Shown: positions 13,825 to 49,476 of the stretch, piece by piece
How the letters are laid out: each line of letters starts with the position of its first letter
Numbering within the stretch: the first letter of the stretch is position 1
Assembly (NCBI GenBank): GCA_028554795.2
Contig: CM068830.1
Coordinates: 47,196,227 to 47,260,226 of the forward strand
Length of the DNA stretch: 64,000 nt
Direction of reading: 5' to 3'
Source: Sinohyriopsis cumingii
Lineage: Eukaryota > Mollusca > Bivalvia > Unionida > Unionidae
Translations under genes and position numbers: made by a program
Notes under the pieces: generated by a model
The model's database searches: none
The model's input: the letters and a program-made list of their open reading frames with translations, nothing else
Told to the model about the DNA's origin: nothing

Positions 13825-13864
13825 AGCCCTTTTCAGGGCTACCCAATACTCTAGAAAAGAAATA
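13825..13864 (+). terminator. Histone-type 3' stem-loop, A1
   Basis: AGCCCTTTTCAGGGCT (13825-13840) forms a 6-bp stem with the TTTC loop standard for replication-dependent histone mRNAs, followed by ACCCA and the purine element AGAAAAGAAATA. It begins 28 nt after the stop codon, the normal spacing. Such ends are cut via U7 snRNP and are not polyadenylated. Confidence 0.8.
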
Positions 13865-14208
13865 ACCATCAATTTGCCAATGTGTAGGTAGAGTAGTGTG
13901 AAAATAAACACTAACTCTTTTTCAAAAAAGTGAGGGTATGTGTTTGTGTGTTTGTGTGATTATGTTTGTAAGTGATAAAGTAGGTTGGTGTGGATAGTAG
14001 ATTAAAATGATGTTTGGTTTTTTTTGGCTGTTAGAGGTGTATATTTGGAGTTAGATTGGATTGATTTGAGTATGTGGATAGTCTATTGAAGTGATTTATA
14101 AAAAATTTTTACAATAGTGATGGGTAGCATAAAAAAGTGAGTGAATGTTTCTTTTAGGTCCGCGCGTTGTTTGGTCATGATCTAGGTAAGATGAATTTTA
14201 TGTTTTTA
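13865..14208 (+). other. Spacer between terminal cassettes
   Basis: No gene seen. Starts with a block (TTTGCCAATGTG, then GTAGGTAGAGTAGTGTG and ATAAACACTAACTCTTTTT) that recurs after stem-loop A2 and in B, so it moved with the cassette duplications. Ends with a second GTCCGCGCG stretch and TTGGTCATGATCTAGGTAAG, which also recurs at 14903. Confidence 0.6.
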
Positions 14209-14248
14209 GGGGGATGTTTTCCTTCACGTCCGCGCTTTCACTATAAAT
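14209..14248 (+). promoter_or_regulatory. Terminal-cassette control box, copy 2, with TATA
   Basis: The box runs 14209-14241 and is directly followed by TATAAAT (14242-14248). This is the clearest case of the box abutting a TATA. The gene starts at 14305. Confidence 0.75.
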
Positions 14249-14304
14249 TGAAACTCGTTCGGCAGTCCAGCTACCCTTGTTGATTGATCAACACAGCCAG
14301 AAGA

Positions 14305-14613
14305 ATGACTAGCAGAACAGTGAAACTGTTAGAACTCCAGATGCACCTGGAATATGCCAGGCGGATAGTAAATGAACTATCAGCGGAGGCTATAGTAGAA
14401 GAAGCAAGAATAAAGAAGGAAGAAGAGGAGAGAAGACAGAGGGAAGAGGAGGAAAAGAAAAGAGAAGAGATGATGTCGTTTAATATTCCTGAAACAGAGG
14501 ATTGGGGTGCTGAAGCGAATCATCCTCCCTCTGCGCTCCCCAGAAGAAAGGTGAAAGAAGACTGGGGAAGAAGATGCGTGTGCGGCGCCAGGCCAGGAAG
14601 GTGCAACCATTAG
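14305..14613 (+). CDS. Terminal cassette gene 2: coiled-coil protein
   Basis: 102 aa from ATG 14305. Leucine-rich helix (LLELQMHLEYARRIVNEL) then a long Glu/Arg/Lys coiled coil, then a tail with WG and CVCGARPGRC. Related in plan to cassette gene 1. The B relative (30258-30440) is shorter and looks broken. Function unknown. Confidence 0.6.
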   Translation: MTSRTVKLLELQMHLEYARRIVNELSAEAIVEEARIKKEEEERRQREEEEKKREEMMSFNIPETEDWGAEANHPPSALPRRKVKEDWGRRCVCGARPGRCNH

Positions 14614-14640
14614 ATAGGTGCATCTGGAGTTTTAAAAAAC

Positions 14641-14680
14641 AGCCCTTTTCAGGGCTACCCAATACTCTAGAAAAGAAATA
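14641..14680 (+). terminator. Histone-type 3' stem-loop, A2
   Basis: AGCCCTTTTCAGGGCT at 14641-14656, ACCCA next, and AGAAAAGAAATA downstream. It begins 27 nt after the stop of cassette gene 2. Confidence 0.8.
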
Positions 14681-14878
14681 ACGATCGATTTGCCAATGTG
14701 TGTAGGTAGAGTAGTGTGTATATAAACACTAACTCTTTTTAAGATAGTGTGAGGGTATGCGTTTGTGTGTTTGTGTGTTTGTAAGAGCTCAGGTATGTTA
14801 GTGTGAATAGTAGATTATGGGTTTCTTAGCGTATGTGAAGAGTATAGTTAGGGTTTTATTATATGAAATGAGAAAGTA

Positions 14879-14986
14879 GGGGGATGTTTTCCTTCACGTA
14901 CGCGCGATGTTTGGTCATCATCTAGGTAAGATCCATTTTATGTTTTAGGGGGATGTTTTCCTTCACGTTCGCGCTTTTCGTATAAG
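14879..14986 (+). promoter_or_regulatory. Tandem control boxes, copies 3 and 4, with TATA
   Basis: Two boxes in a row (14879-14906 and 14948-14975) separated by TTGGTCATCATCTAGGTAAG-type sequence, then TATAAG at 14981. The tandem arrangement is mirrored in B (29740-29839). Confidence 0.7.
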
Positions 14987-15035
14987 AACCCACAGTATTA
15001 GTTGTTCAAACCATTCTGCAAAGAATACAAAGAAG

Positions 15036-15419
15036 ATGGCGTCAAACCACCTTAACAAAATGGAAAAATTACAAAACGTCATGGACAATTTAGGAATGTT
15101 TGAGCAAATGTTGGTTAACCTAAACGAGGATCACTACTCATATAGTCCTCATAGAGTGAAGATGGAGATAAACAATTTATGAAAAATGAAGGTAATCATT
15201 AGTGATCTGTTGAAAGAAATAAAGGAGGAAAAGGAGGATGAAGAGGAAAGGATAAGGATGAGAGAATGGAATGAAAAAATTGAAAAAGAAGAAGAAAATG
15301 AAAAGAGGAAGAAAGAAGAGGAGGAAGAGAAGAAGAAAGAAGAGGAGAAGAAAAAAAAGAAAGAGAAGAAGAGTGTAGGAGATAAAATAAGAAGTTGGTG
15401 GAGGAAAAGAAGAAATTAG
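15036..15419 (+). pseudogene. Terminal cassette gene 3 (coiled-coil), looks broken in A
   Basis: Corresponds to the 126-aa gene 29302-29682 in B. Begins MASNHLNKMEKLQ, carries SYSPHRVKMEINNL, then an extreme Glu/Lys coiled coil, and ends GDKIRSWWRKRRN. About one break in this copy. It sits between the tandem control boxes and stem-loop A3. Confidence 0.6.
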
Positions 15420-15436
15420 AAGAAGAAGAAAACCCA

Positions 15437-15781
15437 AAGGCCCTTTTCAGGGCCAGCCATATTTCTCGAAAAGAGATAGTCTTTGAATTGCCTACCCCTT
15501 TTTTAAATTTAAATTTAAATTTAAATTTTAAAAAAACTTTTTAAAAAAAAAAAAAAATCCCATGTTAAATTCCCCTTGTACGTATAGTATCCCACGATTT
15601 ATTCCCATGTTAAATTCCCTTGTACGTATAGTATCCCACGATTTATTCCCATGTTAATTCCCCTTGTACGTAAAGTGTCCCACGATTTTTCTCCATGTTA
15701 AATTTCCATTATACGTAAAGTGTCCCAAGGGTGTTTTTAATGCTAATTCCCATTATACGTAAAGTGTCCCCCTTCACTACT
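15437..15781 (+). repeat. Terminal inverted repeat of copy A with subterminal iterons
   Basis: Same plan as the B TIRs: stem-loop, poly(A/T) palindromic stretch, then five iterons of about 45 bp built on CCATGTTAAATTCC and TTGTACGTAWAGTRTCCC, ending TTCACTACT. The iterons are probably integrase or terminal-protein sites (inference). Confidence 0.8.
15439..15478 (+). terminator. Histone-type 3' stem-loop, A3 (inside the TIR)
   Basis: GGCCCTTTTCAGGGCC (15439-15454) preceded by CCAAA and followed by AGCCA. AAAAGAG begins 15 nt after the stem (15469-15475), the usual place of the U7-paired element, and is complementary to the CUCUUUU of animal U7 snRNA. It starts 20 nt after the stop. Textbook histone 3' end layout. 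Confidence 0.85.
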
Positions 15782-15787
15782 CGTATT

Positions 15788-17590
15788 GCTGTAAAAACGT
15801 GCATTCAAATCGTATTGTCCTTGTGTTATTACCAGAAGCACATAACCCTAACCCTAAACCCTAACCCTAAGTCACAAGAATCCGATCTTCTAACGAATGC
15901 ATCGACCGGTTCTCACCAATGAGGTATTGTTGGATTACTCTCATGAAGACGCATCTTAGGACATAGGTATCATAGAATTCCGATGATCCGTCCGCTACCT
16001 TAGTACCAAACACTCGTTTCACATTATGGGGGCGTTGTATGTCGCAGACAGGCGGACGAACCATCCTTATGTTTGTCTCACCAAGGCCGATCTAGCAAAG
16101 CAAACCGCATGTCAAAATTCCAAGGCGGTTTCGAGATAATCAGAAAATATTGATGTGGCAACTTGGCCATATTACCTCCCGCAGACCGCCTTACGGTGTT
16201 TGTTTGGAAGACGGGCTTGATTCCAATTTATGTCGTACGTGGTCTGTTTTGTCACACGAATCCAAGTAACTCCATAAGCCCTCAAGCTACCTTCATAGGC
16301 TAGGTGTCTCAGTATGCGTATTTACTGGGCTCATCTGATTGGGCCAATGTCAGCAAGCAATTCAAAGGGGTTACCAAAATATTCACCGAAAAAGACGAAA
16401 TTCATCTAAAAACGCCTTAGTCAAAATTTTATTGGAAAGGCTATAACTTAGCCAAAAAAAATCAAGCTCTCTATCTCATCAAAGTATTAATAGATTTATC
16501 TCCTTAAGATCCGTCTTTTAATACAGGTATCATAAAACTCCGATGATCCGTCTGCTCACTACAATACCAAACACTCATTTCGCATTATAATGGGTGCTGC
16601 AGGTCGCAGAAAGATATACGTACCATCTTTACATAGGTTTACCCAAGGCAGATCAAGCAGAGCAAACCGCTTGAAAAATTCTCAAGATCTTGAGAAAATA
16701 ATTACTTCATGGGTAACCCTAAATCCTAACACAACATGACATAAAATTAATTTTTGCTCCAAAATCTCTCGACCGATTTTCATGAACCAAATACCTATAG
16801 ATCGGGGTCCCTGAGACACGTATTACAGTGAAAAGACCATAAAAATCGCCAGGTCCATTCTTACGTATCATCATAAAACTGCATCACTAACCCTAACCTA
16901 TGATAATCGTAAGGGAAATCACAAGAATCAAATTTTCTCCCAAAGCACTTGACCGATTTTCATGAAAGAAATACCTATCTATCGGGCTATATGACACACG
17001 TACCGCAGCAAAAAGCGCATTGAAATCGCCGGGTCAATTCGTACGTTATACCAGAAAACCATAACCCTAACCATAACCTATATAAACATATGGGAAATCA
17101 CAAGAATTCAATTTTCTCATAAACCACTCGACCAATTTTCATGAACGAAATACCTATCTAGCGGACTCCATGAGACAAGTATTTCAGTGAATACGGTATC
17201 CAAAATGGTTGTTGTTGTTGTAGGGTTTAACGCCATTTTTCAGCACACGATAGACTATACATGGCGGCCAGTATTAATGGTGGAGAAAGAACCCGGGAAA
17301 ACCCCGGAAAGAACCACCGACCCACGAGAAGCTGCTGGTAAGCTTTCTCACATACCCACATTGGCTGAATCTGAGACTCGAACCCACGCAGACAGAGGTG
17401 AGATGGCAATGATCCGTAACGGAGAGCACTTTAGACCACTCGGCCACTCGGGGCCCCCGTATCCAAAATGGTACTATCTGTTCGTACGTTACTACCGGAA
17501 AATCATAACCCTAAGTCACAAGAACACAATTTTCTCACAAATGCCTCAACTGATTTTCATCAGCGATGTATCACTGGATTCATCTCCTCA
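15788..17590. repeat. Satellite-like array with CCCTAA blocks
   Basis: No gene. CCCTAACCCTAA-type stretches occur at 15844-15871 and again near 16717, 16890, 17066 and 17506. From about 16.7 kb a unit of roughly 180 bp repeats with drift: CCCTAA, AATCACAAGAATC, TTTTCTC, CGACCGATTTTCATGAA, AAATACCTATCTA. A SINE interrupts the array. 15.8-16.7 kb holds older versions of the same unit. Confidence 0.6.
17196..17472 (-). mobile_element. tRNA-derived SINE (family 1) with 14-bp target duplication
   Basis: Body 17210-17458 on the minus strand: tRNA-like head with an A box (GGCCGAGTGGTCTAAAG) and B box (GGTTCGAGTCTC), a body with TTCTCCACCATTAATACTGG, and a tail GGCGTTAAACCCTACAACAA. Flanked by the perfect repeat GTATCCAAAATGGT (17196-17209 and 17459-17472), so a recent insertion into the satellite. 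Confidence 0.85.
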
Positions 17591-18100: not shown

Positions 18101-18172
18101 GCATTTTTGTCACAGTATGTGGTATTTTCCATTGATACATTTATCCAGACTATAATAATACTTGGACTTCAA

Positions 18173-28659: not shown

Positions 28660-28962
28660 AATAATTTATCCAAATATTTTATCAAGTCCAATACGATATC
28701 TTGTTCTAGGATCGTGCAAATTTATTGTTATAAACCCATGCGGAGTAGCTTGCGCTCGTGAAAAGAAATTTCTGAATTTAATTATATCCATGTCACCGCT
28801 GCACCAAGTTTGATGAATATTTCGCAACGTATGTGTATCAACTCCATTAAACACAACTAAAATATTACAGTTATCTCTAATCACTTTTGGTATTTGTGTG
28901 TATCGTTGAGTAACGTAAATAACGTCGGTGTTTTTATGTCTACCTCGAGAAAAAATCCTAGC
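28660..28962 (-). pseudogene. Element C packaging ATPase, C-terminal side
   Basis: Minus-strand frame with RHKNTDVIYVTQRYTQIPK and FFSRAQATPHGFITINL, typical of the second half of Polinton/adintovirus HerA-type ATPases. It stops exactly where copy B begins, and the first half lies on the other side of B (49483-49763). Part of an older, decayed element. Confidence 0.8.
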
Positions 28963-28968
28963 TGGATT
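28963..28968. repeat. 6-bp target site duplication, left
   Basis: TGGATT immediately before the left TIR; identical to 49477-49482. Six bases is the length usual for Polinton integration. Confidence 0.92.
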
Positions 28969-29294
28969 AGTAGTGAATGGGGCCACCCTACGGACAATGG
29001 GAATTAGCATTAAAAACACCCCTGGGCCACTCTACGGACAATGGAAATTTAACATGGCGAAAAATCGTGGGCCACTCTACGGACAAGGGGAATTTAACAT
29101 GGCAATAAATCGTGGGCCACTCTACGGACAAGGGGAATTTAACATGGGGAATAGAGTTTGGGGTTGTTTAGGGACAAAGGGAATGGAACATGGGATTTTT
29201 TTTTAAAAAAAATTTTTTTTAAAAAAAAGGGGTAGGCAATGGAAAGGCTATCTCTTTTCGAGAAATATGGCTGGCCCTGAAAAGGGCCTTTGGG
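28969..29294. repeat. Left TIR of copy B
   Basis: About 325 bp, inverted match to 49155-49476. From the tip: AGTAGTGAATGG, five iterons on CGTGGGCCACTCTACGGACA and AATTTAACATGG, a poly(T/A) stretch, GGGGTAGGCAATGG, then the stem-loop of terminal gene 3. Because the stem-loop is part of the TIR, both ends carry one. Confidence 0.9.
29250..29288 (-). terminator. Histone-type 3' stem-loop, B3 (in left TIR)
   Basis: Minus strand GGCCCTTTTCAGGGCC at 29273-29288, 13 nt after the stop of 29302-29682. CTCTTTTCG on plus (GAAAAGAG on minus) follows at the usual distance. Confidence 0.85.
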
Positions 29295-32726: not shown

Positions 32727-34064
32727 CTAATAATCTAGAATGACTTCTCTCAAACTGTTGATTTCTATGGTATTATCGAATTCTGCATACAGGATGACGT
32801 TCACTGTCGTTGGTAGTTTATTTGCAAACTGAAGTTCCACACGAATCTGGCCAGATTTTATAGGGTGGAAATGTCCCTCGTCGCTGCCTTGGTCTGGAGT
32901 GAAATCGAAAGCCCACAAAGCATAGCCTCCGTCATAATCGTCGTACGTAATGCCGTGACTGGTGTTGGTTCCTAACTGGCCGGTGGCTTCGTACAGGGAC
33001 AAGTACGACCTCAAGTAATTCTTCTTCTCAAAGTCAGGTTCGAAAGGTCGGGTACACAAGGTCTTGCCATCGCGACTGACTTCGATCTTGGACACATTGT
33101 AACGATGAAAGTTGAAAGGATTTTCAAGGAAGGCTCCGTTGAAGGCTGAATTCGAGACCATACCAAGGATTAAACGCTTGGGTAACTGTCCTTGGAACAG
33201 ATGATCTTCGGTTATGGATTGAAGGTTAGCGGGAATGGTGAACGTTTTCACTTCCACGCGTCGGATGGGATACTTGGCGGTCGTTCTGCTCAACGTTTGA
33301 CTGATGTCGTTACCTACTTTAGGTAACACTTCCACGCGTCGTACGTAGAGTTTGGCCTCCTCGATTTTGCTTTTAGGATTGCCACCACTAGTAGCATCAC
33401 CATCAGCCAACAAATGGAAAGCAGTACTGCTACGATTCAGTCTCAGGCGAATATTCACTCCGTTTAGCAAATATTTCTCTTGCAACCACATGTCCAAATG
33501 CAAACGATCCATCAGTTCTAAACTCTGTCCATCTAATATTTTCTTTCTTCGTTCTACAAATCCCTCATTGGTGGTTGTTTTTAATTTGGGGTCAGCTTCA
33601 AGACCTGTTTTATCAAATTCGCCCGCTTCGTCAGGTTGCCACACCACACAGGCATCGAGATGAGTATCCTTGGCATCTATTCCGTACGTCAAGAGATTTT
33701 CCAGGTAGGCACGGTAAGGGTAAGTATCCATGCTGCTGCTAACCAGTTTGTTGTTCAAGTACAAGTCCACTGAGCTGAACAAGGAATGCATGAAATTGTT
33801 GATCGGAGCTACTTTCTCTTCGCCGCTTATAATATCTCCTCCCTTATCTAGAACTTTGACTTTCAAGTACAAGTAACTGCTATTCAAATCGATGTAATCT
33901 TCGGGCTGTCCTTTGATGTCAAACTCGATGGGAGCGGAATCGATCAGTGAGGAGATGGGGTAAAATTCCACCCACTGGGATTCTTGCATGGTCATCATCG
34001 TGGGGGGCATGGCAAACAGATCCAGTTCCGTCTTGGAACAGGCGCAAGACTCTCGGTGCATCAT
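32727..34064 (-). CDS. Double jelly-roll major capsid protein (B)
   Basis: 445 aa. Framework matches copy A nearly residue for residue (QPEDYIDLNSSYLYLKVK, NNFMHSLFS-VDLYLNNKL, ILYAEFDNTIEI), while loops near residues 70-85, 145-170, 210-235 and 275-320 have different sequence and length (for example LADGDATSGGNPKSK here). The concentration in loops suggests exposed positions on the capsid. Confidence 0.93.
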   Translation of the reverse strand: MMHRESCACSKTELDLFAMPPTMMTMQESQWVEFYPISSLIDSAPIEFDIKGQPEDYIDLNSSYLYLKVKVLDKGGDIISGEEKVAPINNFMHSLFSSVDLYLNNKLVSSSMDTYPYRAYLENLLTYGIDAKDTHLDACVVWQPDEAGEFDKTGLEADPKLKTTTNEGFVERRKKILDGQSLELMDRLHLDMWLQEKYLLNGVNIRLRLNRSSTAFHLLADGDATSGGNPKSKIEEAKLYVRRVEVLPKVGNDISQTLSRTTAKYPIRRVEVKTFTIPANLQSITEDHLFQGQLPKRLILGMVSNSAFNGAFLENPFNFHRYNVSKIEVSRDGKTLCTRPFEPDFEKKNYLRSYLSLYEATGQLGTNTSHGITYDDYDGGYALWAFDFTPDQGSDEGHFHPIKSGQIRVELQFANKLPTTVNVILYAEFDNTIEINSLREVILDY

Positions 34065-34080
34065 TTTGTTCTGTTCTTTC

Positions 34081-34500
34081 TCAATAATCGAAAACGTCTA
34101 AGTCTCGAACGGTTCTTCTTTTCTTGGCCTTTCTCGCTTGAAGTCTGGTGAAAGGGTGTTTTCTTCTTCGTCGTCTCTTTCTGCCTTGTCCTTGTTGAAT
34201 GCCTGACTCGGTAGCGTGCAGGGCATTTATAGGTGTCTCTCGTTGGCCTAAAATGTCTTTGCCCGTTTGCAGCAAGACATTTTTGCCTGCCCTCATGAAG
34301 GCTTCTTTAGGGTTTTGTTTGTCGATGATGACATTTTGGAGAAATTCTTTGCCTTGTGTCAGTGCCGCATCTTTCAAGGCGTGCAATCCGCGTGTCACCA
34401 TCGGTTTCAACACTGGGGCCACCGAATGAAAGGCCGATTTTAACATGTCTCCTAAACCGTGTCCTCGCTGTCGAGCCACCCCTTGGTACACTGGATACAT
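34081..34500 (-). CDS. pVI-like / core virion protein (B)
   Basis: 139 aa; partner of 10278-10694. MYPVYQGVARQRGHGLGDML start, helical middle, basic GRKRRRRRKHPF tail. Very close to copy A. Confidence 0.75.
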   Translation of the reverse strand: MYPVYQGVARQRGHGLGDMLKSAFHSVAPVLKPMVTRGLHALKDAALTQGKEFLQNVIIDKQNPKEAFMRAGKNVLLQTGKDILGQRETPINALHATESGIQQGQGRKRRRRRKHPFTRLQARKAKKRRTVRDLDVFDY

Positions 34501-35864: not shown

Positions 35865-36908
35865 TCACTTCTTCTTTTTATAGTCGATGACTTGCGAAGC
35901 GTCGATCCAAGAATAAAAACTGGGTGGATATCCTTTCCAACGTACTTTGACTTCTTTGACACGTCGTTTGCCCACTTTACGGGTTCTGCGTTCCAGAATG
36001 CTTTCGATGTCGTACACGTCGTCTTCTTTTTTGGTGACACGTTGTAACTCGGGCAAATAAAACGTTCCTTTGAGTACTTCTCCGTTCATGTCTTCCAATT
36101 TATAGACGGCAGGATGACGGCCATGTACTCGTCCAGTGACGCGAAACAATTCGGTCGTCCAGTTAGGTAAGTAACCTTTGTCGAAAGTGCGTTTGGTTTT
36201 GCCAATGCGCACCCAATCTCCTACGGTCAACTCTCCACTTTTCTTGGGGACAGCCCTCGTCGGGGACGTACCGAACAGGCGCTCGAACACCAGCACTTCG
36301 TTCTCGGGAGTCACGTCTTGCGGGGCACGTCCGATGCTTCGATGGTAAGATTGGTTGTACGCTTGCACCAGGTGCGGTAAGATGTCGATGTACTTCAGAG
36401 TGTGGTGATGCGTAAAATATTTCCACATGCGTTCTTTCAAAGTGCGTTGAAAACGTTCCACGATGCTGGCTTTGGTTTCGGGATTCTCGGTGGTAAAAAA
36501 ATGAATGTCACGTTTCTTTAATTCTTTTTGGAAAGCTTGGTTCAGAAATTCGGTGCCTTTGTCCGTTTGCCATCGAAGAGGGTGACGACCGCTTTGTTTC
36601 AACACTCGTTGCAGGGCTCGCACTAACTCGCTGCTCGATTTGGAAGTCAAAGGCACGACCCAGGCAAATTTGGAAAAGACGTCGATGACACAAAACAAAT
36701 ATTTGTAGCCACGATTATAGCTGGCCAAATGAGAGACATCGGCTAAATCGGCTTGCCATTGATGATCGATGCCTTCCACTCGGGTGCGACTTCTGGCAAA
36801 CTTGCGTCGAATGGGTTTGTGTAAAGTGTAGGTAGCTTGTTCTTGTAACCATCGTTGCACTTGAGGTAAACGGAGACTTTTCAGTCGAGTTTTGGCAGCA
36901 CGATACAA
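35865..36908 (-). CDS. Integrase with chromodomain (B)
   Basis: 347-aa visible frame covering the whole catalytic core (WQADLADVS, WQTDKGTEF, KASIVERFQ) and the chromodomain (VRWKGYPPSFYSWID). Nearly the same as 7804-8916. The gene looks to have about one break overall, in contrast to the copy in A, which looks whole. Confidence 0.9.
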   Translation of the reverse strand: MYRAAKTRLKSLRLPQVQRWLQEQATYTLHKPIRRKFARSRTRVEGIDHQWQADLADVSHLASYNRGYKYLFCVIDVFSKFAWVVPLTSKSSSELVRALQRVLKQSGRHPLRWQTDKGTEFLNQAFQKELKKRDIHFFTTENPETKASIVERFQRTLKERMWKYFTHHHTLKYIDILPHLVQAYNQSYHRSIGRAPQDVTPENEVLVFERLFGTSPTRAVPKKSGELTVGDWVRIGKTKRTFDKGYLPNWTTELFRVTGRVHGRHPAVYKLEDMNGEVLKGTFYLPELQRVTKKEDDVYDIESILERRTRKVGKRRVKEVKVRWKGYPPSFYSWIDASQVIDYKKKK

Positions 36909-36998
36909 TTTTTGAACTCCTGCGTAACCTGCAGGATGCGAGGGATCGTAGTAAATGCTGGCTAAGACCTTTTTCCATTTTTTGTGTTGATTGGTGTC

Positions 36999-39149: not shown

Positions 39150-39893
39150 TCATGGGGAGTGAAATGAAGTTGAGGACGGAGACGTGTACAGGACAGGCCC
39201 TCCGTCTTGGCACCAGTGGTGAAACAAGTGGGTACGAAATCGCAAATCCTCGGGGGTCGTAGGTTTCAAATCGACGAGTAAATAGGCGTGTGGTGTTTGA
39301 GTGGCATCGTCGTACGCCTGAGTCAGCCAAGGCGTTCCTAACTGTTTGGCTAAGACTTGCACTTGCGATTTATCTCGAGGGCTTTTAAACAAGACCACGT
39401 AATGCGCATTGAGACTGATGGTGCGATGGGCTTTACTTTGTTGAAACAAATTTTGGGTGATGTAAACGACACTGGCATTACGGTGATGCCCTTTGCGCGT
39501 GAACCACAGTTTAATTTCTTCTTCGTCTTCTCCTAACATGTCGTCGAAAATGACCAAATGGGTTAGACGGGAGTCAGAGACGATGCCATCGTCTTCTTTA
39601 GGAATGCCTTCCACGAACACGATGGAATCGCCTTGACTTTCTCGCAAGAGGCTGTACGCCGATTGCCACTCTTTGTAACACCACACGATCCGTTGAGGGG
39701 GTCGATCGATCAAATGATGTTTATGTTCGATCAAACGTTTGACGAATTCGGTTTTGCCTGAACCGCTAGGTCCAGCAATGAGCATGTTAAAGGGATGGCG
39801 AAGATACAAAGCCTCCCAACTGGCACGATCTAAGTGTTCGTCGATGACTTTGACAGTAGAGGAAGAGGGAGCAGAGACAGTAGAGGTAGCCAT
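39150..39893 (-). CDS. FtsK/HerA-type packaging ATPase (B)
   Basis: 247 aa from ATG at 39893, chosen because the TATA (39943-39948) and initiator leave this as the first ATG as in copy A. Walker A GPSGSGKTEF and Walker B LVIFDDML intact; only a handful of residues differ from 4885-5628. Confidence 0.92.
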   Translation of the reverse strand: MATSTVSAPSSSTVKVIDEHLDRASWEALYLRHPFNMLIAGPSGSGKTEFVKRLIEHKHHLIDRPPQRIVWCYKEWQSAYSLLRESQGDSIVFVEGIPKEDDGIVSDSRLTHLVIFDDMLGEDEEEIKLWFTRKGHHRNASVVYITQNLFQQSKAHRTISLNAHYVVLFKSPRDKSQVQVLAKQLGTPWLTQAYDDATQTPHAYLLVDLKPTTPEDLRFRTHLFHHWCQDGGPVLYTSPSSTSFHSP

Positions 39894-39981
39894 GGTGTGA
39901 GAAATGTCACTTGTGACACGAAAAACAAACAAGACAAGAGTTTATATACTTTTTCAGAACACGTTTATTGAATGTTTTTTT

Positions 39982-40492: not shown

Positions 40493-40707
40493 GGAGGTGG
40501 TAAGTACTGATCGTAAAGAGTCCACAAAGAATCGGCTGGTAAACGAAATCCCAAAAAACAAGTCACTAAGACACACACCACTTGTCGTCCCAAATTGAAT
40601 GGATACAGTTCTTGTAATAATCGATGGTAATGATCCACGGTTTGAATATGGTCATTGAGTTCCTTCCACGGAATCTGTTGGATGACATACGACATAAGTC
40701 GTGGCAT
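40483..40707 (-). CDS. Small protein of unknown function (B)
   Basis: 74 aa; partner of 4071-4295 with a single visible substitution. Start overlaps the end of the F-box-like paralogue. Confidence 0.5.
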   Translation of the reverse strand: MPRLMSYVIQQIPWKELNDHIQTVDHYHRLLQELYPFNLGRQVVCVLVTCFLGFRLPADSLWTLYDQYLPPPWP

Positions 40708-41170
40708 AACAGCCTGTTTTTATAGTCTCTTTGTTACGAAAAGAATACACGTACTTTCTAGCCAGTGATGTTCGTTTTCCAGTTGGGAATGTAAATCTTG
40801 CATACTGTAACCGAAACGTCAGAGTTCGTTTAGGTGTTTCCTCTTCCGCTAAGTAGATTCCACGTAACAAATGTTGGTAATCCTTTACCTTGTCTTCCTC
40901 AATGGGTTGCTCTAGGTGAATCTCGAAGTAACCAAAATGATCAACACGTGAATCATCGGGGGCCTGGAAGTATTGAACAAGGTCTGACCACTGAAACAAT
41001 TTCTGACGAATCAGTTCTCTTATACCATTCAGGTACCAGTGGTTAAAAATCTGGTGACGTAACGGATGCAATTGTTCTTTACATTTCACTTGTATTTTCA
41101 CCAGCTCTCGGTAAATGCGTTCTCTCAACTCCACAGGCAAGCCCAAAATGTACTCTTGTAAAGTATCCAT
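40652..41170 (-). CDS. F-box-like paralogue 2 (B)
   Basis: 172 aa from MDTLQEYILGLPVELRERIY. More diverged from its partner (3608-4126) than most genes here: the middle and C-terminal parts carry many substitutions, so this family seems to evolve fast. Confidence 0.65.
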   Translation of the reverse strand: MDTLQEYILGLPVELRERIYRELVKIQVKCKEQLHPLRHQIFNHWYLNGIRELIRQKLFQWSDLVQYFQAPDDSRVDHFGYFEIHLEQPIEEDKVKDYQHLLRGIYLAEEETPKRTLTFRLQYARFTFPTGKRTSLARKYVYSFRNKETIKTGCYATTYVVCHPTDSVEGTQ

Positions 41171-41405
41171 AAGTATATACACTGTTTTTGGAATCGTTGG
41201 GTGGTAGCCAATAGCCTCGTTTAACTTTGTGCCTAATGTAATATCCACTCATAATCAGTCTTCTTGTACTTTGGAACAGAGCATAATTTAAAAACGGATG
41301 AATCACTTTGAGTTTGCGTTTCACTTGTATTTTGATCAGTTCTCGGTAAATGCGTTCTCTCAACTCCACAGGCAAAGCACGAATGTTCTCTTGTAAAGTA
41401 TCCAT
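41079..41405 (-). pseudogene. Partial third F-box-like paralogue, only in B
   Basis: Begins MDTLQENIRALPVELRERIY like its neighbours, then after about 32 residues the sequence departs and the frame runs into the next gene. Copy A has nothing between its two paralogues. Probably a remnant of an extra tandem duplicate. Confidence 0.5.
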
Positions 41406-41417
41406 GAATAGGTCATA

Positions 41418-41873
41418 CTAAATCCTCTTTGGTCTGACACAAGAAATGTACTCTTTGCACAAACATGGTTTTACTTCAGTGTCGAATTTAAATCGTTGAG
41501 TCACTAATCTACACATTACAATTCGTTCAGAAGTTTCCTCTTTCACTAAGTTGACATTGTGTGAAAGATGTTGGTAATTCGTTAACTCTTCCTCTGGAAT
41601 TCGATGCAGTACGTTTACAATGATGTAACTACAATCGTCCATACCAAACCAATCCTTTTTAAAACTAGAGGATCGTTGATCAATGTCTGTCCGATGGAAC
41701 ACTTTCAATTGAATCAATCCTTGTATAGCCTTCAGGTACCAGTGGTTCAAACACCGGTGACGTAACGGATGCAATTGTTCTTTACGTTTCACTTGTATTT
41801 TGACCAGTTCTCGGTAAATACGTTCTCTCAACTCCACAGGCAAAGCACGAATGTTCTCTTGTAAAGTATCCAT
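41418..41873 (-). CDS. F-box-like paralogue 1 (B)
   Basis: 151 aa; partner of 3140-3595. F-box-like LPVELRERIYRELV at residues 11-24. The middle (about residues 65-85) differs most from A. Confidence 0.7.
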   Translation of the reverse strand: MDTLQENIRALPVELRERIYRELVKIQVKRKEQLHPLRHRCLNHWYLKAIQGLIQLKVFHRTDIDQRSSSFKKDWFGMDDCSYIIVNVLHRIPEEELTNYQHLSHNVNLVKEETSERIVMCRLVTQRFKFDTEVKPCLCKEYISCVRPKRI

Positions 41874-41901
41874 GAACAGATTATTATGGTAAGAAGTTAC
41901 T

Positions 41902-42639
41902 TCAATGTCTCGGTCCCACTAAAGGTAAGTAATGACAATTCGGTGACCATCGAGCATGTTCTACGTAGGCCGAATCTTGCGGTTCCCAGTGGTGAAGTGA
42001 CACACCGCAACTGAAGCACTTGACTTTATCTCCTTCGCCCAAGTAGAAAAATCCGGCTCTGGCTAATTCTTCGGGGGTCGGTCCTCCCAGATACTTTGGC
42101 CATTTTCCTTTGAACGATTGAAGACGATTTTCAAAGTCGCAGTATTCCGACAAACGCACAGGAAACGAATATTCGTTTTTCACAGGTTCGTTTCGATGAG
42201 GGTTGGGTGACAGGAACAGGAGTTTGCTCAGGGCTGGATGACATCCGTAGGGAGGTAAACGTGAAGGTCGACATTCCCCTTTAAACCCAGTAAAATGTCT
42301 AAGAGGACGAGCGGCATCGCTTTCGCATCCCTCAGGTTTGACACGCACAGCATCACTTTCCATGACAGGGGCAGTGAGAACAAAGTTCCCATGATGCTTT
42401 ACGGCATCGCTCAGGTCACAACGTACAGCATCGGTCCCATCGCAAGGCTCACAATCGCACTCGTCTGCAAACTCCGTTACGCAATTACAATGGTAACCAC
42501 ATGGACAATCGCAGTTTCCTTCCGGACATTTTCCGTCGCAATGCCTGGGTCTTATCCATCCAATATTAGTCACACTAGAGGAAGATACAACTTTTTTACA
42601 ATCCCCAAACTGAAACGATGTCTTTTTCAAAGTATTCAT
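41902..42639 (-). CDS. BIR-domain protein 1 (B)
   Basis: 245 aa; partner of 2367-3110. Same Cys/Asp-rich N-terminus, SDAV-type repeats and single C-terminal BIR domain (VKCFSCGVSLHHW ... EHARWSPNC). Confidence 0.88.
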   Translation of the reverse strand: MNTLKKTSFQFGDCKKVVSSSSVTNIGWIRPRHCDGKCPEGNCDCPCGYHCNCVTEFADECDCEPCDGTDAVRCDLSDAVKHHGNFVLTAPVMESDAVRVKPEGCESDAARPLRHFTGFKGECRPSRLPPYGCHPALSKLLFLSPNPHRNEPVKNEYSFPVRLSEYCDFENRLQSFKGKWPKYLGGPTPEELARAGFFYLGEGDKVKCFSCGVSLHHWEPQDSAYVEHARWSPNCHYLPLVGPRH

Positions 42640-42698
42640 CTTGTTCGCTCGGTCTTGGTAGTCACAATGAACTATCGATCTTGACCATAGCCCCCTTT

Positions 42699-43157
42699 TT
42701 ATACTAGTCGCAATGCTGTCTCCAGCTTGTACATCTTTCCTTTTCTACGTTTTTTATGTCTTGTTTCGGAAGGTACCGTCTCTAAGGTACCGTCAACATT
42801 GTACCGTAGTGTGATGGGTGGAAAGGCCATAGAAAGGTAAGGGCAGTGCGGAGACCATCGAGTATGTTCCAGAATAGCTGAATCTTTATAGATACATAGA
42901 TCCATTCGTAACTTCAGTCCGCAAGCAAAACACTGTACCTCGTATCCCAATCCTGACTCAGGTCCCAAGTAGACAAATCCTGTTCTAGCTAAAACATGCG
43001 AAGAAGGTAATCCTTCCCTATCCGTAGGCCATTTCTGAAACGTGTCCAATCGACGGGCACAATCACAATAGTCAGGTAAGAAGACTGGAAAATGGTAGGG
43101 TTTGAACTTGGAGTGCTCATCGGGTTTCTCACTCGATTCTTGCTGTGGCGAAGTCAT
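42699..43157 (-). CDS. BIR-domain protein 2, present only in B
   Basis: 152 aa with one BIR domain: CARRLDTFQKWP, LARTGFVYLG, VQCFACGLKLR, EHTRWSPHCPYL (C-x2-C-H-C). A basic tail (RHKKRRKGK) follows. It lacks the Cys-rich N-terminus of BIR protein 1. In copy A the polymerase gene runs straight into BIR 1, so this gene was gained or lost between the two copies. Likely anti-apoptotic (inference). Confidence 0.85.
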   Translation of the reverse strand: MTSPQQESSEKPDEHSKFKPYHFPVFLPDYCDCARRLDTFQKWPTDREGLPSSHVLARTGFVYLGPESGLGYEVQCFACGLKLRMDLCIYKDSAILEHTRWSPHCPYLSMAFPPITLRYNVDGTLETVPSETRHKKRRKGKMYKLETALRLV

Positions 43158-43180
43158 CTTTCTGGTGGGTGGCTATCCTC

Positions 43181-46132
43181 TTACAACCAATGTTTTATAC
43201 CAACGTGTCCATACGGTAAGGTGAAATGATTGGGAAGTCGAACTCGCTTCTGGTACACGATTTGATAAACTTTTTCCAAAGGTCGACTGACGATGTGGTG
43301 AGTGGGTAAACGTACAATCTTGTTCGGTTGGTAAGTGGTCACTTTAAAGTTTCCATCCTCTCCCGATTGCAAGGCTTCTTTCAATACCCCAAAGTTGACC
43401 ACTCGACTGGTACGATAATTCAGAGTCAGTCCTTTCACTTTGCACGTCGTGTGTACTTCTCCTTGTTTGTCACGGTATTCGTAGCCGTAATTTTTGGGAC
43501 CGCCACTGACGAAACTTAGAATCTTGTCGTCGGGATGCTCGTCTGTCCAGGCTCCTAAACGGTCTCCTTCGATGTTAGGGTGATGTTGAATCGGGTGATG
43601 GATGTAAATGCAACTGTCCGTGTCAAAGTACAGGACGCGTTCTTCTAACAGTTCTAAAGCTTCGTACAATTTTAAGCGAGCATGGGCTGTCACGTAAGCC
43701 GCAATGATGACATTTCCAAAAGGGTCGTCTTGTACAAAGTCCAGATCTTCTTCGTAATTGACCAAGATCAAATTCTCTCGAACGACGTCCACGTGTTTCA
43801 TGTATTTGGTTTTGTCGTGAATCATCTGGAAGTAGCGGGAAGGTTCTGTCAAATATTCCGTCTTGGGTAAACACGGTCGTTGTGCCATTTTACCCCACAA
43901 GCAATTTAACATCACTTTGGCAAACGATCTCCTGCCTTCGTTTTTCTCGATGTGGTCTAAAGTGATGCCTTCTTGTTCGTAATATTTCTCTTTGAATTGT
44001 ATTTGGTCTTCGGGAGTGTGACACCAGGAAGGATAGCCGCTGGCTTCTTGCTTCAGTTTCAAAAAGGCATCCACGTAGTCTGCGAAAATGCCTTTCTGAC
44101 TGGGATCACCCTTGCGGTACTGTTGTGTCTTGGGAAAGTGGCAAATTTCGTACACTTCTAACAGTTGGTATCCCATGTCCAGAGCTTTGAACAATTCCAC
44201 GCTGACCCAGGTTCCCGTCAAGGCCCGTTCTTCCTGGCTGTGATGACAAGGCTGGTCTTGGTTGCACGTTTCGGCACAAGTACGGCACAAGGGAAACATC
44301 AGTTTGCCTTGACAATGGTGAGGTAAGACGGGATGGTATAGGTTCGTGGGAGGCAAAACTTTGCACTTGATCAAGCCTTCGTATTGTCGAATGTTTTTCA
44401 GGTCGATGTGTTCCGTCAGCAATTGCGGGTGCCCTACAGGAAAGCGACAATATTTACACACGTAGGGATACAGCGAATACACGTCCAAGTATTTGATTTC
44501 TTCTCCTTTCTCTTCGTCGGCTTGGTACAGCAAACAGGTGGCATTGGTCCTTCCTCCGTACAAACTATCCCTCGGGTTCAGCGGGTCCATGAACTGGTAA
44601 CTTTCCACGAGACGTTTAAACTCGGGATCGGTTTTCATACGGTGATCGTACTCGTGTTCCCACATTTCCACCACTTGGTATCCTTGCTGTTCTAACTTTA
44701 GGCGTCGCTGACAAGTGTCCTGGTACAAGTCTTCCATGGTTCGTTGCAAAAACTGATTTTTAGTACCACGGTCAGGGTAACAGACGGGACATCCGTGAAA
44801 TAAGCAACCGTTAAACTCGTACACAATCTTGGGGTTTTCTAAGTCCCAGCCATCGACCGAATACGTTCCGATGGTCTTTTCGCCCCCTCCGTTGCGGGCA
44901 TGCTGAATCCACTTGTCTTCCTTGTCGCACAAGTAATGTAACCAACGTAGGGCTTTGACCGAGTATTGACGTTTGACAAAGTGGGTCGTTTGAGGACTGA
45001 TGACAGCCACGGTCTTTTCAGGCATGAATCGTTGTCGATACACTAAGGAACACGCTTTGGCAATGGTGCAAGCTTCTTTCAAAGGATCGACCCCTCCGTG
45101 TTCCATGAACAGTTCTCGAAATTTTCCACAGCAACGCCGTAAAATGTCCACGTCGGAACGACAATACTTTAGCATTTCTTCCTGAAAGTCGAAGGGGTCC
45201 GAGGCGTGAATCTGGTGCCAAGCGTAGAAAGCTTCTCGTTGTTCGGTACGCATGTTGGCGGGGTCGTAATAGTGAGCCTCGGGTAAATGGGGTAGAACGG
45301 CGTGTTGATTGGCTTCCGTATTGAAAAAGTGTGGAAAGTACCCTTTAGCCATTTCTGTCATTCCAAACGTTTTAGGCATTCGACTCAAAGGCATGGCCAA
45401 ATAGCTCATCGAATCTTTAAACTGTACTTGTCCCACTTGCATGAAAATGATTTTGGCTCCGTTCAAAGTCACTTTAGGACGCTCGGTGCCTTGTTCCGTA
45501 TAGTATCTGAGAAGAAACTGTCCATCGTATCCGGAGAAATTGTGAGCCATCACCGTGGCATGACGATGACAATCTCCGTAACGTTCGATGTCCTCTTGGC
45601 TCCACGTCTTGTCGACGGGGTCTAAGACCCATTGGGCAAAATCGGCTAACGTGTTCGGTCCCCGAAAGATTTTTTCACGCCCTCCAGGAATTTTGCTGCA
45701 GTGAGGGCAATGACTGAAGATAGGTTCTTGAATGCACTTCTCGCACGCTCGATGAGCCACGCAAAAATTAGGAATGTGAATGCCGGTCTCTTGCATGCAT
45801 TCGAAATCGAAAAAGATGAAATTGCCTTTCTTCTTGTGACCGTCCTCTTTCTCTGGTGGGGGTTGGTATTTTTGCACGTAACATTCGTGTTCCAAGTCCA
45901 CGATGTGGTGACAAATGTGACATTTTTTCTTTCCTGAACATACGTGTGCCTTGACACTATTGGTACGTATGCCTTGTCCACACGTAGGGCACAATCTCAG
46001 CAGTTGACAAGCGCATTTCTTCTGTGAACCTTGCGTCTTCAAGTGTTGTTGGTAACAGGTAGGGCTGACAAACGTGCGCAGACAAGTGGAACAAGGCACT
46101 GGTTCTTCGCTCAGACAGGGTGGAGAGGCCAA
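43181..46132 (-). CDS. polB: DNA polymerase B, long visible frame (B)
   Basis: 983 aa. N-terminal Cys/His zinc-like region (CPTCGQGIRTNSVKAHVCSG, CHICHHIV), ExoI FFDFECMQETG (about residue 108), ExoII near HNFSGYDGQFLLRYY, ExoIII YCRSDVDIL, motif A DVYSLYP, motif B KVMLNCLWGK, motif C FDTDS. Complete exonuclease and polymerase domains of the protein-primed type. The full polymerase region, including 46470-47219, looks interrupted (about two breaks). Confidence 0.93.
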   Translation of the reverse strand: MASPPCLSEEPVPCSTCLRTFVSPTCYQQHLKTQGSQKKCACQLLRLCPTCGQGIRTNSVKAHVCSGKKKCHICHHIVDLEHECYVQKYQPPPEKEDGHKKKGNFIFFDFECMQETGIHIPNFCVAHRACEKCIQEPIFSHCPHCSKIPGGREKIFRGPNTLADFAQWVLDPVDKTWSQEDIERYGDCHRHATVMAHNFSGYDGQFLLRYYTEQGTERPKVTLNGAKIIFMQVGQVQFKDSMSYLAMPLSRMPKTFGMTEMAKGYFPHFFNTEANQHAVLPHLPEAHYYDPANMRTEQREAFYAWHQIHASDPFDFQEEMLKYCRSDVDILRRCCGKFRELFMEHGGVDPLKEACTIAKACSLVYRQRFMPEKTVAVISPQTTHFVKRQYSVKALRWLHYLCDKEDKWIQHARNGGGEKTIGTYSVDGWDLENPKIVYEFNGCLFHGCPVCYPDRGTKNQFLQRTMEDLYQDTCQRRLKLEQQGYQVVEMWEHEYDHRMKTDPEFKRLVESYQFMDPLNPRDSLYGGRTNATCLLYQADEEKGEEIKYLDVYSLYPYVCKYCRFPVGHPQLLTEHIDLKNIRQYEGLIKCKVLPPTNLYHPVLPHHCQGKLMFPLCRTCAETCNQDQPCHHSQEERALTGTWVSVELFKALDMGYQLLEVYEICHFPKTQQYRKGDPSQKGIFADYVDAFLKLKQEASGYPSWCHTPEDQIQFKEKYYEQEGITLDHIEKNEGRRSFAKVMLNCLWGKMAQRPCLPKTEYLTEPSRYFQMIHDKTKYMKHVDVVRENLILVNYEEDLDFVQDDPFGNVIIAAYVTAHARLKLYEALELLEERVLYFDTDSCIYIHHPIQHHPNIEGDRLGAWTDEHPDDKILSFVSGGPKNYGYEYRDKQGEVHTTCKVKGLTLNYRTSRVVNFGVLKEALQSGEDGNFKVTTYQPNKIVRLPTHHIVSRPLEKVYQIVYQKRVRLPNHFTLPYGHVGIKHWL

Positions 46133-46469
46133 ACATCCTGAGCATTTCCATCCACAATGTTTGTGTTGCTCTCGATTATTATAACCATAGTCACATTTCT
46201 CACAGTAATATCTGCATCCCAGGAATCCAGTGATACTGGTAATGGTATCGAAATGTTCATCGTGATGATAAAGGTGAATGTATTTTCCGTCCTTAAAATC
46301 TTGGCCTCGAAAACAACAGAGGCCCGCGCATTTCTTGAGGGTGCACTTTCAAGGTGTAGCGTGGAGCTAGGACATCTTGCAATTTTTGCATCTCGGGAAT
46401 GCCACAGGGTGTGTCTTTGGACAGTCCGACTTGTTGTAACAGGAGTTTTGCTTCGTTTCGTTGTTTGGC

Positions 46470-47353: not shown

Positions 47354-47824
47354 ATGGAAGAGACTAACCAGATGGAACGTTTCGTCAGAGCTTTGCGAGG
47401 GGTCATTAGAAAATTCTCTTCAGACCAGCCTACGGACTACTCTCCTTCCTTTAGAGATAAAAGTCAAGATACTTGCTATATCTGTCAGAAGAAAGGGCAT
47501 TGGTCTTCAGAGTGTCCAGACCGTCAAAAAAGAAAAAAAACAGGGGATAAAAAAGACAAAAGTCAAGATACCTGTTATTATTGTAAAGAAAAAGGACATT
47601 GGTCTCCAGATTGCCCAAAAAAGAAACAAGAGGAGTCAGAAGAAGAGAGGAATTCTTCAGAAGAAGAGAGGGATTCTTCAGAGGAAGAGAGGGATTCTTC
47701 TGAGGAAGAAAGAAGACAGGTGAAGAAAAAGAAACAGGAGAAAAAAAGAAGAAGGGAAGAAAGCGAGGAGGAAGAAGAGGAAAAGAGTGTGACGGTGAAG
47801 AAATTCAAAAAACAGAGAGATTAA
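47354..47824 (+). CDS. Double CCHC zinc-knuckle protein
   Basis: 156 aa from ATG 47354. Two knuckles CYICQKKGHWSSEC and CYYCKEKGHWSPDC (C-x2-C-x4-H-x4-C) separated by a basic linker, then three (E)SSEEER(D/N) repeats that look like casein kinase 2 sites, then a basic tail. Likely binds single-stranded nucleic acid. Unlike its neighbours it is followed by AATAAA (about 47910), not a stem-loop. Its copy-A partner would lie outside the window. Confidence 0.75.
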   Translation: MEETNQMERFVRALRGVIRKFSSDQPTDYSPSFRDKSQDTCYICQKKGHWSSECPDRQKRKKTGDKKDKSQDTCYYCKEKGHWSPDCPKKKQEESEEERNSSEEERDSSEEERDSSEEERRQVKKKKQEKKRRREESEEEEEEKSVTVKKFKKQRD

Positions 47825-48044
47825 ACAAGGAGAAAAGAAGAAGTCAATGAACTTTTTATTAAAGTGTTGTGTTGTGAATTGTGAATTGGATTGTAAAAAA
47901 ATGGAGAAAAGAATAAATGAATGATATAAGGTAAGAGTCTTTGAGTTTTGATTTTAAAATAAGAAGCTACACTCACGCACTCATACACAGACACGTACTA
48001 TAAGGGTAAAATGGGTGAGTTTTTTTTTGAGTTATTGGCAAATT

Positions 48045-48091
48045 GAAATTGTATTTCTTTTCGAGAAATGTGGGTGGCCCTGAAAAGGGCC
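48045..48091 (-). terminator. Histone-type 3' stem-loop, B4
   Basis: Minus strand GGCCCTTTTCAGGGCC at 48076-48091, 28 nt after the stop of 48120-48686, followed by ACCCA, then CGAAAAGAAATA at the standard distance and TTTGCCAAT further on. Confidence 0.85.
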
Positions 48092-48119
48092 TTTTTTTCT
48101 TTATGGTGCAGGGGTGAGT

Positions 48120-48686
48120 TTAAGCAATCAATTTTAACTGCCTTAAGCCTTTGCCACGGCCAAGGCCTACTTCTGGACTGCGTAATGATGATAATGATTG
48201 GGTTGAAATCACTAAGGGTGGTACGGTAGGCTTAGTCACAGGGTTGACATGTTTGGCTCGGGAAGGTCGTATTCTCTTCGGTCGTGATAAAGAAGTCTGA
48301 TACATTTGTTTCAGACTTCTTAACTCCGCTAAAATGTCCAACAGTACCGTGACCGTTTGATTTTCACCCTCTTGTTTCTTTGCTGCTACTTCTTCTTGCT
48401 GTTGTTTTTTTCTTACCTCTTCTTCTTGTTGCTGTTGCTGTAGGAGAAAAGCCTGTTCCGCTTCCTTTTGTCGTTGTATAAATTTCTCCAATTCTTCTTT
48501 CTGTCTCTGTCTAAAATTCTCCACTTGAGGTAATGAAGAAGGTAACGAAGGTTCCGGAACAAATTCTTGCGAGGAGAGAAAATCCACAAAATCCCAATTC
48601 ACCTCTTCTGAAAGTAAGTCCGGGTTCCCTTGGGCGGTCTCCCCTGCTGGTGCACCCCACTGGATCGTTTTCTGAGTTTCCGTCAT
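48120..48686 (-). CDS. Coiled-coil, Gln-rich protein of unknown function
   Basis: 188 aa. Acidic N-terminus, a helix-forming Gln/Glu/Lys coiled coil (about residues 55-105), a leucine-zipper-like LLDILAELRSLKQMY, then a basic Pro/Ser tail. Resembles cassette genes 1-3 in plan. Ends in stem-loop B4; shares a divergent promoter with 48906-49136. Confidence 0.7.
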   Translation of the reverse strand: MTETQKTIQWGAPAGETAQGNPDLLSEEVNWDFVDFLSSQEFVPEPSLPSSLPQVENFRQRQKEELEKFIQRQKEAEQAFLLQQQQQEEEVRKKQQQEEVAAKKQEGENQTVTVLLDILAELRSLKQMYQTSLSRPKRIRPSRAKHVNPVTKPTVPPLVISTQSLSSLRSPEVGLGRGKGLRQLKLIA

Positions 48687-48905
48687 GTTGAATCACTGTC
48701 GCATAGATTGACTGCACACAAGCGCTAGCGAATCTATATTGACTACGTGACGTCACAGACTGCTCTCTTCGGATTGGATGTGGGCTGACTGAATTCTGTA
48801 ACGCGTGTTCGGATTGGTGAATGAACTCAATCCGTTTCAATCCTTTCTGTCCCTATAAATAAGCGCAGTTCACTGCATTGATTCACCTATTCTCGGAGCC
48901 TCAAC
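48687..48905. promoter_or_regulatory. Divergent promoter with CRE and two CCAAT boxes
   Basis: A perfect TGACGTCA (48748-48755), two reverse CCAAT motifs (ATTGG near 48774 and 48814), and TATAAAT (48854-48860) for the plus gene with initiator A at about 48885. The minus gene has a weaker TATAGAT. CCAAT plus TATA upstream and a stem-loop downstream is the layout of animal histone genes. Confidence 0.65.
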
Positions 48906-49136
48906 ATGTGGACCGACGTTGAATCTTCAACTCTTGTGTCAACAATGATGTTCAGGACGGACATGCTCATGTATGTCCGGTCCAAGTGGACCGTTGTCCA
49001 CAGGACCAACAGCAGCCTGTGGATAAGAAGAGTCTATATAGAGAGACAAGGTTGCCTCAAGAGGACTCTGATGTATGGCCCTGCTGTAAGACGAAGTTTG
49101 AGGAAAAGAAGATGTCGCAAATGCCCTTTATGCTAA
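48906..49136 (+). CDS. Small Arg/Cys-rich terminal protein
   Basis: 76 aa. No family recognised; ends RRSLRKRRCRKCPLC, a basic Cys tail. Support comes from context: TATA and initiator at correct spacing upstream and histone-type stem-loop B5 22 nt after the stop. A second hairpin, ATGCCCTTTATGCTAAGGGCAT, overlaps the stop codon. Transcribed outward toward the right tip. Confidence 0.5.
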   Translation: MWTDVESSTLVSTMMFRTDMLMYVRSKWTVVHRTNSSLWIRRVYIERQGCLKRTLMYGPAVRRSLRKRRCRKCPLC

Positions 49137-49154
49137 GGGCATATTAACATAAAC

Positions 49155-49476
49155 CAAAGGCCCTTTTCAGGGCCAGCCATATTTCTCGAAAAGAGATAGC
49201 CTTTCCATTGCCTACCCCTTTTTTTTAAAAAAATTTAAAAAAAAAAAAATCCCATGTTCCATTCCCTTTGTTCCTAAACAACCCCAAACTCTATTCCCCA
49301 TGTTAAATTCCCCTTGTCCGTAGAGTGGCCCACGATTTATTGCCATGTTAAATTCCCCTTGTCCGTAGAGTGGCCCACGATTTTTCGCCATGTTAAATTT
49401 CCATTGTCCGTAGAGTGGCCCAGGGGTGTTTTTAATGCTAATTCCCATTGTCCGTAGGGTGGCCCCATTCACTACT
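49155..49476. repeat. Right TIR of copy B
   Basis: Inverted partner of 28969-29294, including the stem-loop, the poly(T/A) stretch and the five TGTCCGTAGAGTGGCCC iterons, ending CCATTCACTACT. Confidence 0.9.
49159..49200 (+). terminator. Histone-type 3' stem-loop, B5 (in right TIR)
   Basis: GGCCCTTTTCAGGGCC (49159-49174) preceded by CCAAA, followed by AGCCA and CGAAAAGAGATAG. Serves the outward-facing gene 48906-49136. Confidence 0.85.

Follow-up and report, generated by a model that had tools for sequence, protein, structure and literature searches.

We have studied the 3′ ends of the terminal genes of a Polinton (Maverick) family in a stretch of 64,000 nucleotides (nt) from the bivalve Sinohyriopsis cumingii, taken from an assembly of 2.9 Gb and referred to here in its entirety as the window. 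Five genes at the ends of the element, T1 to T5, are each followed by a stem-loop and a purine-rich site arranged as in the mRNAs of replication-dependent histones. These signals agree in position, strand and spacing, are conserved between copies of the element, recur elsewhere in the genome and occur in one distantly related Polinton. We conclude, with a probability of roughly 0.83, that T1 to T5 end in working sites for stem-loop binding protein (SLBP) and the U7 small nuclear ribonucleoprotein (snRNP), giving short, non-polyadenylated messages linked to S phase.

Repeat comparison revealed two inverted copies of one Polinton, A and B, with five stem-loop sites each. In every element T1, T2 and T3 lie in tandem at one end, and T4 and T5 form a divergent pair at the other. 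All five are read as intronless genes from single open frames, two of the window frames (T3 of copy A and T2 of copy B) being broken some way upstream of the stop. Copy B is a complete insertion (28969–49476, minus strand), whereas copy A (1–15781, plus strand) is cut by the window edge. The eight stem-loops of the window are therefore five positions of one element and not independent events, and the eight separate 3′ ends implied in a first-pass annotation of this DNA have to be counted accordingly.

Exact matches to RGCCCTTTTCAGGGCY occur eight times in the window, where 0.08 would be expected and none of 100 shuffled sequences reached eight. They lie at the places and on the strands that the first-pass annotation had given. 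Searching with the histone stem-loop model RF00032 at E ≤ 1 returned the same eight places and none besides. The score is 41.2 bits for the site at 48076, 35.6 bits for those at 15439, 29273 and 49159, and 31.0 bits for those at 13825, 14641, 30072 and 30890; the cut-off of the model is 34 bits. Each structure has a stem of 6 bp, a loop of 4 nt and an A-rich 5′ flank, and lies 13–32 nt past the stop of the adjoining open reading frame (ORF), always on the sense strand; the distance had been put at 13–35 nt. The stem is followed by ACCCA or one of the variants AGCCA, ACTCA and ACCCC, and the purine core starts 15 nt past the stem in 8/8 window sites. The first-pass annotation had given this order as (A/G)(C/G)CCA and then GAAAAGA(G/A) about 15 nt on. 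Over all 16 sites compared the offset is 15 in 15 cases and 16 in one.

On the plus strand of copy A, T1 (13434–13796, 120 amino acids, 9 homologous proteins) is followed by its stem-loop at 13825–13840 and by the purine site GAAAAGAAAT at 13854–13863, a candidate for pairing with U7 at a core offset of 15. T2 (14305–14613, 102 amino acids) has its stem-loop at 14641–14656 and GAAAAGAAAT at 14670–14679. T3 (15036–15419), whose frame is broken, has its stem-loop at 15439–15454 and the purine site GAAAAGAGAT at 15468–15477. The order is mirrored on the minus strand of copy B. There T3 (29302–29682, 126 amino acids) is served by a stem-loop at 29273–29288 and GAAAAGAGAT at 29250–29259, the broken frame of T2 (30117–30440) by a stem-loop at 30072–30087 and GAAAAGAAAT at 30049–30058, and T1 (30938–31303, 121 amino acids, homologues aligned) by a stem-loop at 30890–30905 and GAAAAGAAAT at 30867–30876. 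At the other end of copy B, T4 (48120–48686, minus strand, 188 amino acids, 20 homologous proteins) has a stem-loop at 48076–48091 and GAAAAGAAAT at 48053–48062. T5 (48906–49136, plus strand, 76 amino acids), divergent from T4, has a stem-loop at 49159–49174 and GAAAAGAGAT at 49188–49197.

By sequence, three classes of stem-loop can be told apart: T1/T2, T4 and T3/T5. In the mouse, SLBP sits on the stem, the sequence CUCUUU of U7 pairs with the core AAAGAG of the purine element, and CPSF73 cuts about 5 nt past the stem, after ACCCA (PMC7026596). The core of the T3/T5 class, AAAGAG, is that of the mouse. The classes are also alike beyond the core, with AATTTGCC or ATTGCC downstream, and this common wording indicates that they are probably of one origin. 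We considered whether the conserved TATAAACACTAACTC found 3′ of the T1 and T2 stem-loops might be the promoter of the next gene. This was rejected: the next ATG is 300–390 nt away, and an upstream box, GATGTTTTCCTTCACGTNCGCGC, and a TATA-like stretch lie nearer to it.

The 3′ modules of 46–47 nt are better conserved between copies A and B than their surroundings. Identity extends over 232 of 234 module positions, compared with 815 of 1012 positions in the 100-nt flanks (Fisher p 4.5e-17, for positions that are non-independent). T5 is the clearest case, with 46/47 identical positions in the module and 131/200 in the flanks, despite synonymous divergence (dS) of 1.89 and nonsynonymous divergence (dN) of 0.12 between the copies. 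T1 and T4 are nearly identical in A and B (dN 0 in both; dS 0.09 for T1 and 0.016 for T4) and so add little to the case. Within the stem only the closing pair varies: two classes have G-C there and the T1/T2 class has A-U, the remaining five pairs being invariant. The covariation score was reached in 2 of 500 shuffles.

Further copies carry the same ends. The T4 and T5 sites of copy A, which were predicted to lie outside the window, were both found, scoring 41.2 and 35.6 bits. We also sampled the chromosome in 18 evenly spaced stretches of 10 kb and two near the window, with the pattern scan applied to 20/20 and Rfam to 14/20. One of the 18 holds another element end, belonging to a copy C that was traced to its other end; extrapolating from this single hit gives a very rough copy number of about 136 to 26,000. 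The stem-loops of copy C score 28.2 (T1), 31.7 (T2), 37.5 (T3) and 41.2 bits (T4), two of them (T3 and T4) over the cut-off. That of T5 has decayed to 18.8 bits behind a broken T5 frame. The T1 frame is broken too, and the stop-to-stem distance is 39 nt for T1 and 85 nt for T3. The end motifs of the element are present in copy C and a matching target duplication is absent, so that its two ends may not be those of one insertion.

The T3 slot of copy C (L033:2982–3506) is occupied by a protein unlike the T3 of copies A and B. Its stem and purine core are nevertheless unchanged relative to T3 of copy A, with an altered spacer between them. Two genomic places described below have this type of protein in the slot as well. 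We conclude that the slot exchanges its gene and keeps its 3′ end.

A search of the whole genome with RF00032 gave 589,472 first-look candidates, of which the best 75 were scored. All 75 exceed the cut-off, 69 of them at 42.6–45.6 bits, and they are spread over many contigs. Since the sites of the window are not among them, 75 is a lower bound. Ten of the 75 were inspected, and each follows a terminal gene of a Polinton: T3 in four cases, T5 in three, the copy C type of T3 in two and T4 in one. The stem stands 15–25 nt past the stop in these ten places. By eye, the full purine core is present in eight and the stem is unbroken in nine. The ten were chosen by their score for the motif, so it is the gene context alone that constitutes independent evidence. 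Histone genes may be among the remaining 65.

The feature also extends to a distant relative. A capsid alignment search detected four loci, L001–L004, in contigs filed under bacteria, namely as bacterial metagenome-assembled genomes (symbionts of Escarpia and Bathymodiolus, Breoghania and Bacteroidia). The contigs are probably animal DNA, and the genes in them that resemble those of animal Polintons are probably carried over from a host. In L004 an outward-facing C2H2 zinc-finger ORF is followed, 28 nt past its stop, by a stem-loop of 35.8 bits whose core offset is 15. The identity in the capsid ORF of this locus is 31%. Two of the four assemblies behind these loci have an RF00032 match at E ≤ 0.001, one of which, the L004 site, is over the cut-off; the control genomes gave one match, in Lactococcus lactis, below it. 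A place in G001 scoring 24.6 bits was set aside as sub-cut-off. The motif CATTGTCC occurs six times in the outer 500 nt of L004 and not in the remainder. In the window, the two terminal repeats of copy B contain it twice each, and it is present once elsewhere. The link that it provides between the terminal repeats is modest, because the window has the shorter CCATTGT at 11 other places. L004, filed under Bacteroidia, also has an ORF for a TATA-binding protein (1129–1692, plus strand; PF00352, E 1.9e-27) beside the integrase. Viral contigs searched with the capsid ORF (once alone and once in an alignment), the integrase, a piece of PolB, T4 and T1 yielded no relative. The stem-loop plus purine site pattern had no match in the viral contigs, a looser stem-loop pattern had five there, none of them like RF00032, and tblastn of phage records with the capsid ORF found none.

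The histone-type layout that the first-pass annotation had proposed is thus supported at the level of sequence by the RF00032 matches, whose absence the annotation had named as refuting it, the 15-nt spacing, the conservation of the module over its flanks, the exchange of genes in the T3 slot and the gene context of 10/10 genomic places. A number of observations weigh against it. While the covariance model matched all eight window sites, it placed four over its cut-off and left four under it, at 31.0 bits (E 6.4e-5). The core of T1, T2 and T4 is AAAGAA, not AAAGAG. Two of the ten inspected genomic places are without a full purine core (one has none and one a shortened form), and one has a broken stem pair. 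Changes on both sides of a pair were as many in 319 of 500 shuffles, and they amount in effect to one event. Of the related Polintons in which the same ends had been looked for, L004 has them and L001–L003 have no RF00032 match, loci that may stop short of the element ends. Lastly, an AATAAA lies beyond the stem-loop of T1, in copy B 112 nt past the stop and in copy A at 13903.

The AATAAA downstream of the T1 stem-loop would permit ordinary polyadenylation, or the use of both signals, and human histone genes that carry both are described in PMC9756948. In general form the argument would be that the stem-loops are present, but that the messages mostly end at ordinary downstream poly(A) sites, a histone-type end being occasional. 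We consider this unlikely. Neither AATAAA nor ATTAAA occurs within 400 nt past the stops of T2 and T3 in copy B, the nearest AATAAA of T4 and T5 are 259 and 390 nt off, and the stem together with the purine core is the best conserved stretch. The other genes of the element have few such signals within reach: among 21 other ORFs of copy B, five have an AATAAA within 400 nt past the stop (two of these using one site), and the PolB, capsid, penton, ATPase and integrase ORFs, by our labels, lack both AATAAA and ATTAAA over this distance. The annotated use of AATAAA by the polymerase and capsid blocks is therefore poorly supported.

Might the hairpins act instead as DNA, as sites for replication, packaging or recombination of the element ends? 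Three of the eight (15439, 29273 and 49159, belonging to T3 and T5) mark where the terminal inverted repeat ends on its inner side; judged by eye, the likeness of the two element ends stops at CCAAA, right before the stem. The hairpins of T1, T2 and T4 are not part of the repeat, however, and a role as DNA would leave unexplained why the window sites all take the sense strand close behind a stop, with a one-sided purine spacing of 15 nt. We regard such a role as very improbable. We give even less credence to a passive relic, that is, a histone 3′ end captured once and then multiplied, unused, together with the terminal genes and repeats. The likeness of the classes beyond the core would agree with a single capture. 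Yet disuse accords poorly with modules that have changed far less than their flanks, with a stem and core that stayed constant in the T3 slot of copy C as the spacer changed, and with the decay, in copy C, of the stem-loop behind a T5 frame that is itself broken.

We therefore favor processing of the terminal-gene messages in the manner of histone mRNAs. Host SLBP would bind the stem, the purine core would be paired by U7 snRNP, and cleavage of the pre-mRNA would follow a few nt past the stem. The resulting short messages without poly(A) would be made and kept mainly while the histone machinery is active, in S phase or perhaps in the oocyte and early embryo. Active U7 processing is described as restricted to S phase (PMC9756948). 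Judging from the signals, it is most likely that SLBP and U7 bind, that the RNA is cleaved and lacks poly(A), and that its timing follows S phase, and the terminal genes are most likely short, separately promoted units with histone-like message ends. A wider proposal is more tentative, and we would put it at somewhat less than an even chance. A large class of animal Polintons might make two kinds of transcript, the core replication and capsid genes being expressed by other means and the terminal genes through the host pathway for histone messages. This would limit the products of the terminal genes to S phase, or to the oocyte and early embryo with their wealth of SLBP, and in numbers might divert SLBP and U7 from histone messages. 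Such a trait would be of old date, because L004 has a histone-type end too and its capsid-like protein is so divergent.

The regions upstream of T1–T3 have the box GATGTTTTCCTTCACGTNCGCGC in common, with eight matches in the window and 0 expected. It lies before T1 of copy A at 13346–13368 (plus strand), and the others are at 14213, 14883 and 14952 (plus) and 29744, 29813, 30505 and 31369 (minus). The stretch common to T4 and T5 (48690–48905) contains, by eye, a TATA-like site and ATTGG words. A divergent pair with a common upstream stretch is familiar from histone gene pairs. Pfam placed none of T1–T5 in a histone family, giving weak sub-cut-off matches only (SPT2_N, Drc1-Sld2 and Ribosomal_L6e), and no solved structure related to T4 was found.

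The identity of the elements as Polintons is established by PolB, an rve integrase, an A32-like ATPase, terminal inverted repeats and target duplications. In copy B these are, all on the minus strand, the type-B DNA polymerase ORF at 43181–46348, putatively of the protein-primed type (PF03175, E 3.3e-40), the integrase ORF with chromodomain at 35865–36998 (PF00665, E 2.9e-14; PF00385, E 1.6e-6) and the ATPase ORF at 39150–39941 (PF04665, E 1.5e-7, over the Pfam cut-off). An adenovirus-type protease match (PF00770) is weak, at 16.2 bits against a cut-off of 21.3. The ORF at 32727–34097 (minus strand) we take to be the putative major capsid protein from its position and from general knowledge of such elements; it has no match in a Pfam search and 872 homologues, and the animal-named ones among the 120 listed are from bivalves and one periwinkle. 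Both copies have the ends AGTAGT...ACTACT. Copy B is flanked by the 6-bp target duplication TGGATT, and its terminal inverted repeats extend over 28969–29293 at the T1–T3 end, where CCAAA beside the stem-loop was taken by eye as the inner edge, and over 49154–49476 at the T4–T5 end (repeat comparison and printed ends). Copy A, recognized by its inverted repeats with copy B, has the 6-bp duplication CGTATT, a terminal repeat with 44-bp tandem units at 15434–15781 (its T1–T3 end), and its true start beyond the window at C7:47192212 (L012 position 2213). The (AGT)2//(ACT)2 end motif and the 6-bp target duplication are described for Polintons in PMC8097293.

Several other features were seen in and around the two copies. 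Two ORFs with BIR domains (inhibitor of apoptosis), at 41902–42744 and 42699–43172, adjoin the copy B polymerase. Three related ORFs in a row at 40652–41918 (repeats D3 and D6) have a common start like MDTLQE; one of the three was searched against Pfam and had no match. A zinc-knuckle ORF at 47354–47824, which in copy B runs against the main gene block on the other strand, is without a histone-type end. Copy B is inserted within an A32-like ATPase ORF (28666–29031 and 49212–50857, with sub-cut-off Pfam matches), near which lies an integrase-like ORF (50396–50857), one Polinton-like element being nested in another. A telomere-like AACCCTAACCCTA repeat stands at 15844–15870, about 60 nt beyond the end of copy A.

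We are not aware of any mobile element or DNA virus whose own messages end in the manner of histones. The first-pass annotation knew of no Polinton or adintovirus with this feature, and we likewise found none in the literature searched, which was mostly open-access. That literature contained no paper joining 'histone stem-loop' with 'Polinton', and among the papers listed none was seen to describe a histone-type 3′ end in Polintons, adintoviruses or other mobile elements, including what was accessible of PMC11071296, PMC11071308 and PMC8097293. If our reading is correct, the terminal genes of Polintons would be bound to S phase or early development, and RNA-seq on poly(A)-selected material would count too few of their messages. 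It would also offer a direct route to the open question of when and where Polintons are active. A warning for annotation follows as well, in that all ten high-ranking histone stem-loops inspected in this genome are those of a mobile element.

How do these ends compare with known systems? They resemble those of replication-dependent histone mRNAs (RF00032; SLBP and U7 snRNP) in the dimensions of stem and loop, the A-rich 5′ flank, the ACCCA or variant, the purine core 15 nt on and the short distance from a small ORF's stop codon, as in the mouse layout (PMC7026596). They differ in that the genes are not histones by Pfam and lie in a mobile element, with processing predicted from sequence signals. 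The element itself is like other animal Polintons in its type-B polymerase, rve integrase with chromodomain, A32-like ATPase and sub-cut-off protease match, as well as in its terminal inverted repeats, (AGT)2//(ACT)2 ends and 6-bp target duplications. It is set apart from them by the histone-type 3′ ends of its terminal genes, by two BIR genes and by the upstream box, in this window only before T1–T3. Adintoviruses are related in kind through their Polinton-type gene set. The elements described here would differ from these in their histone-type 3′ ends, of which the available portions of PMC11071296 and PMC11071308 contain none.

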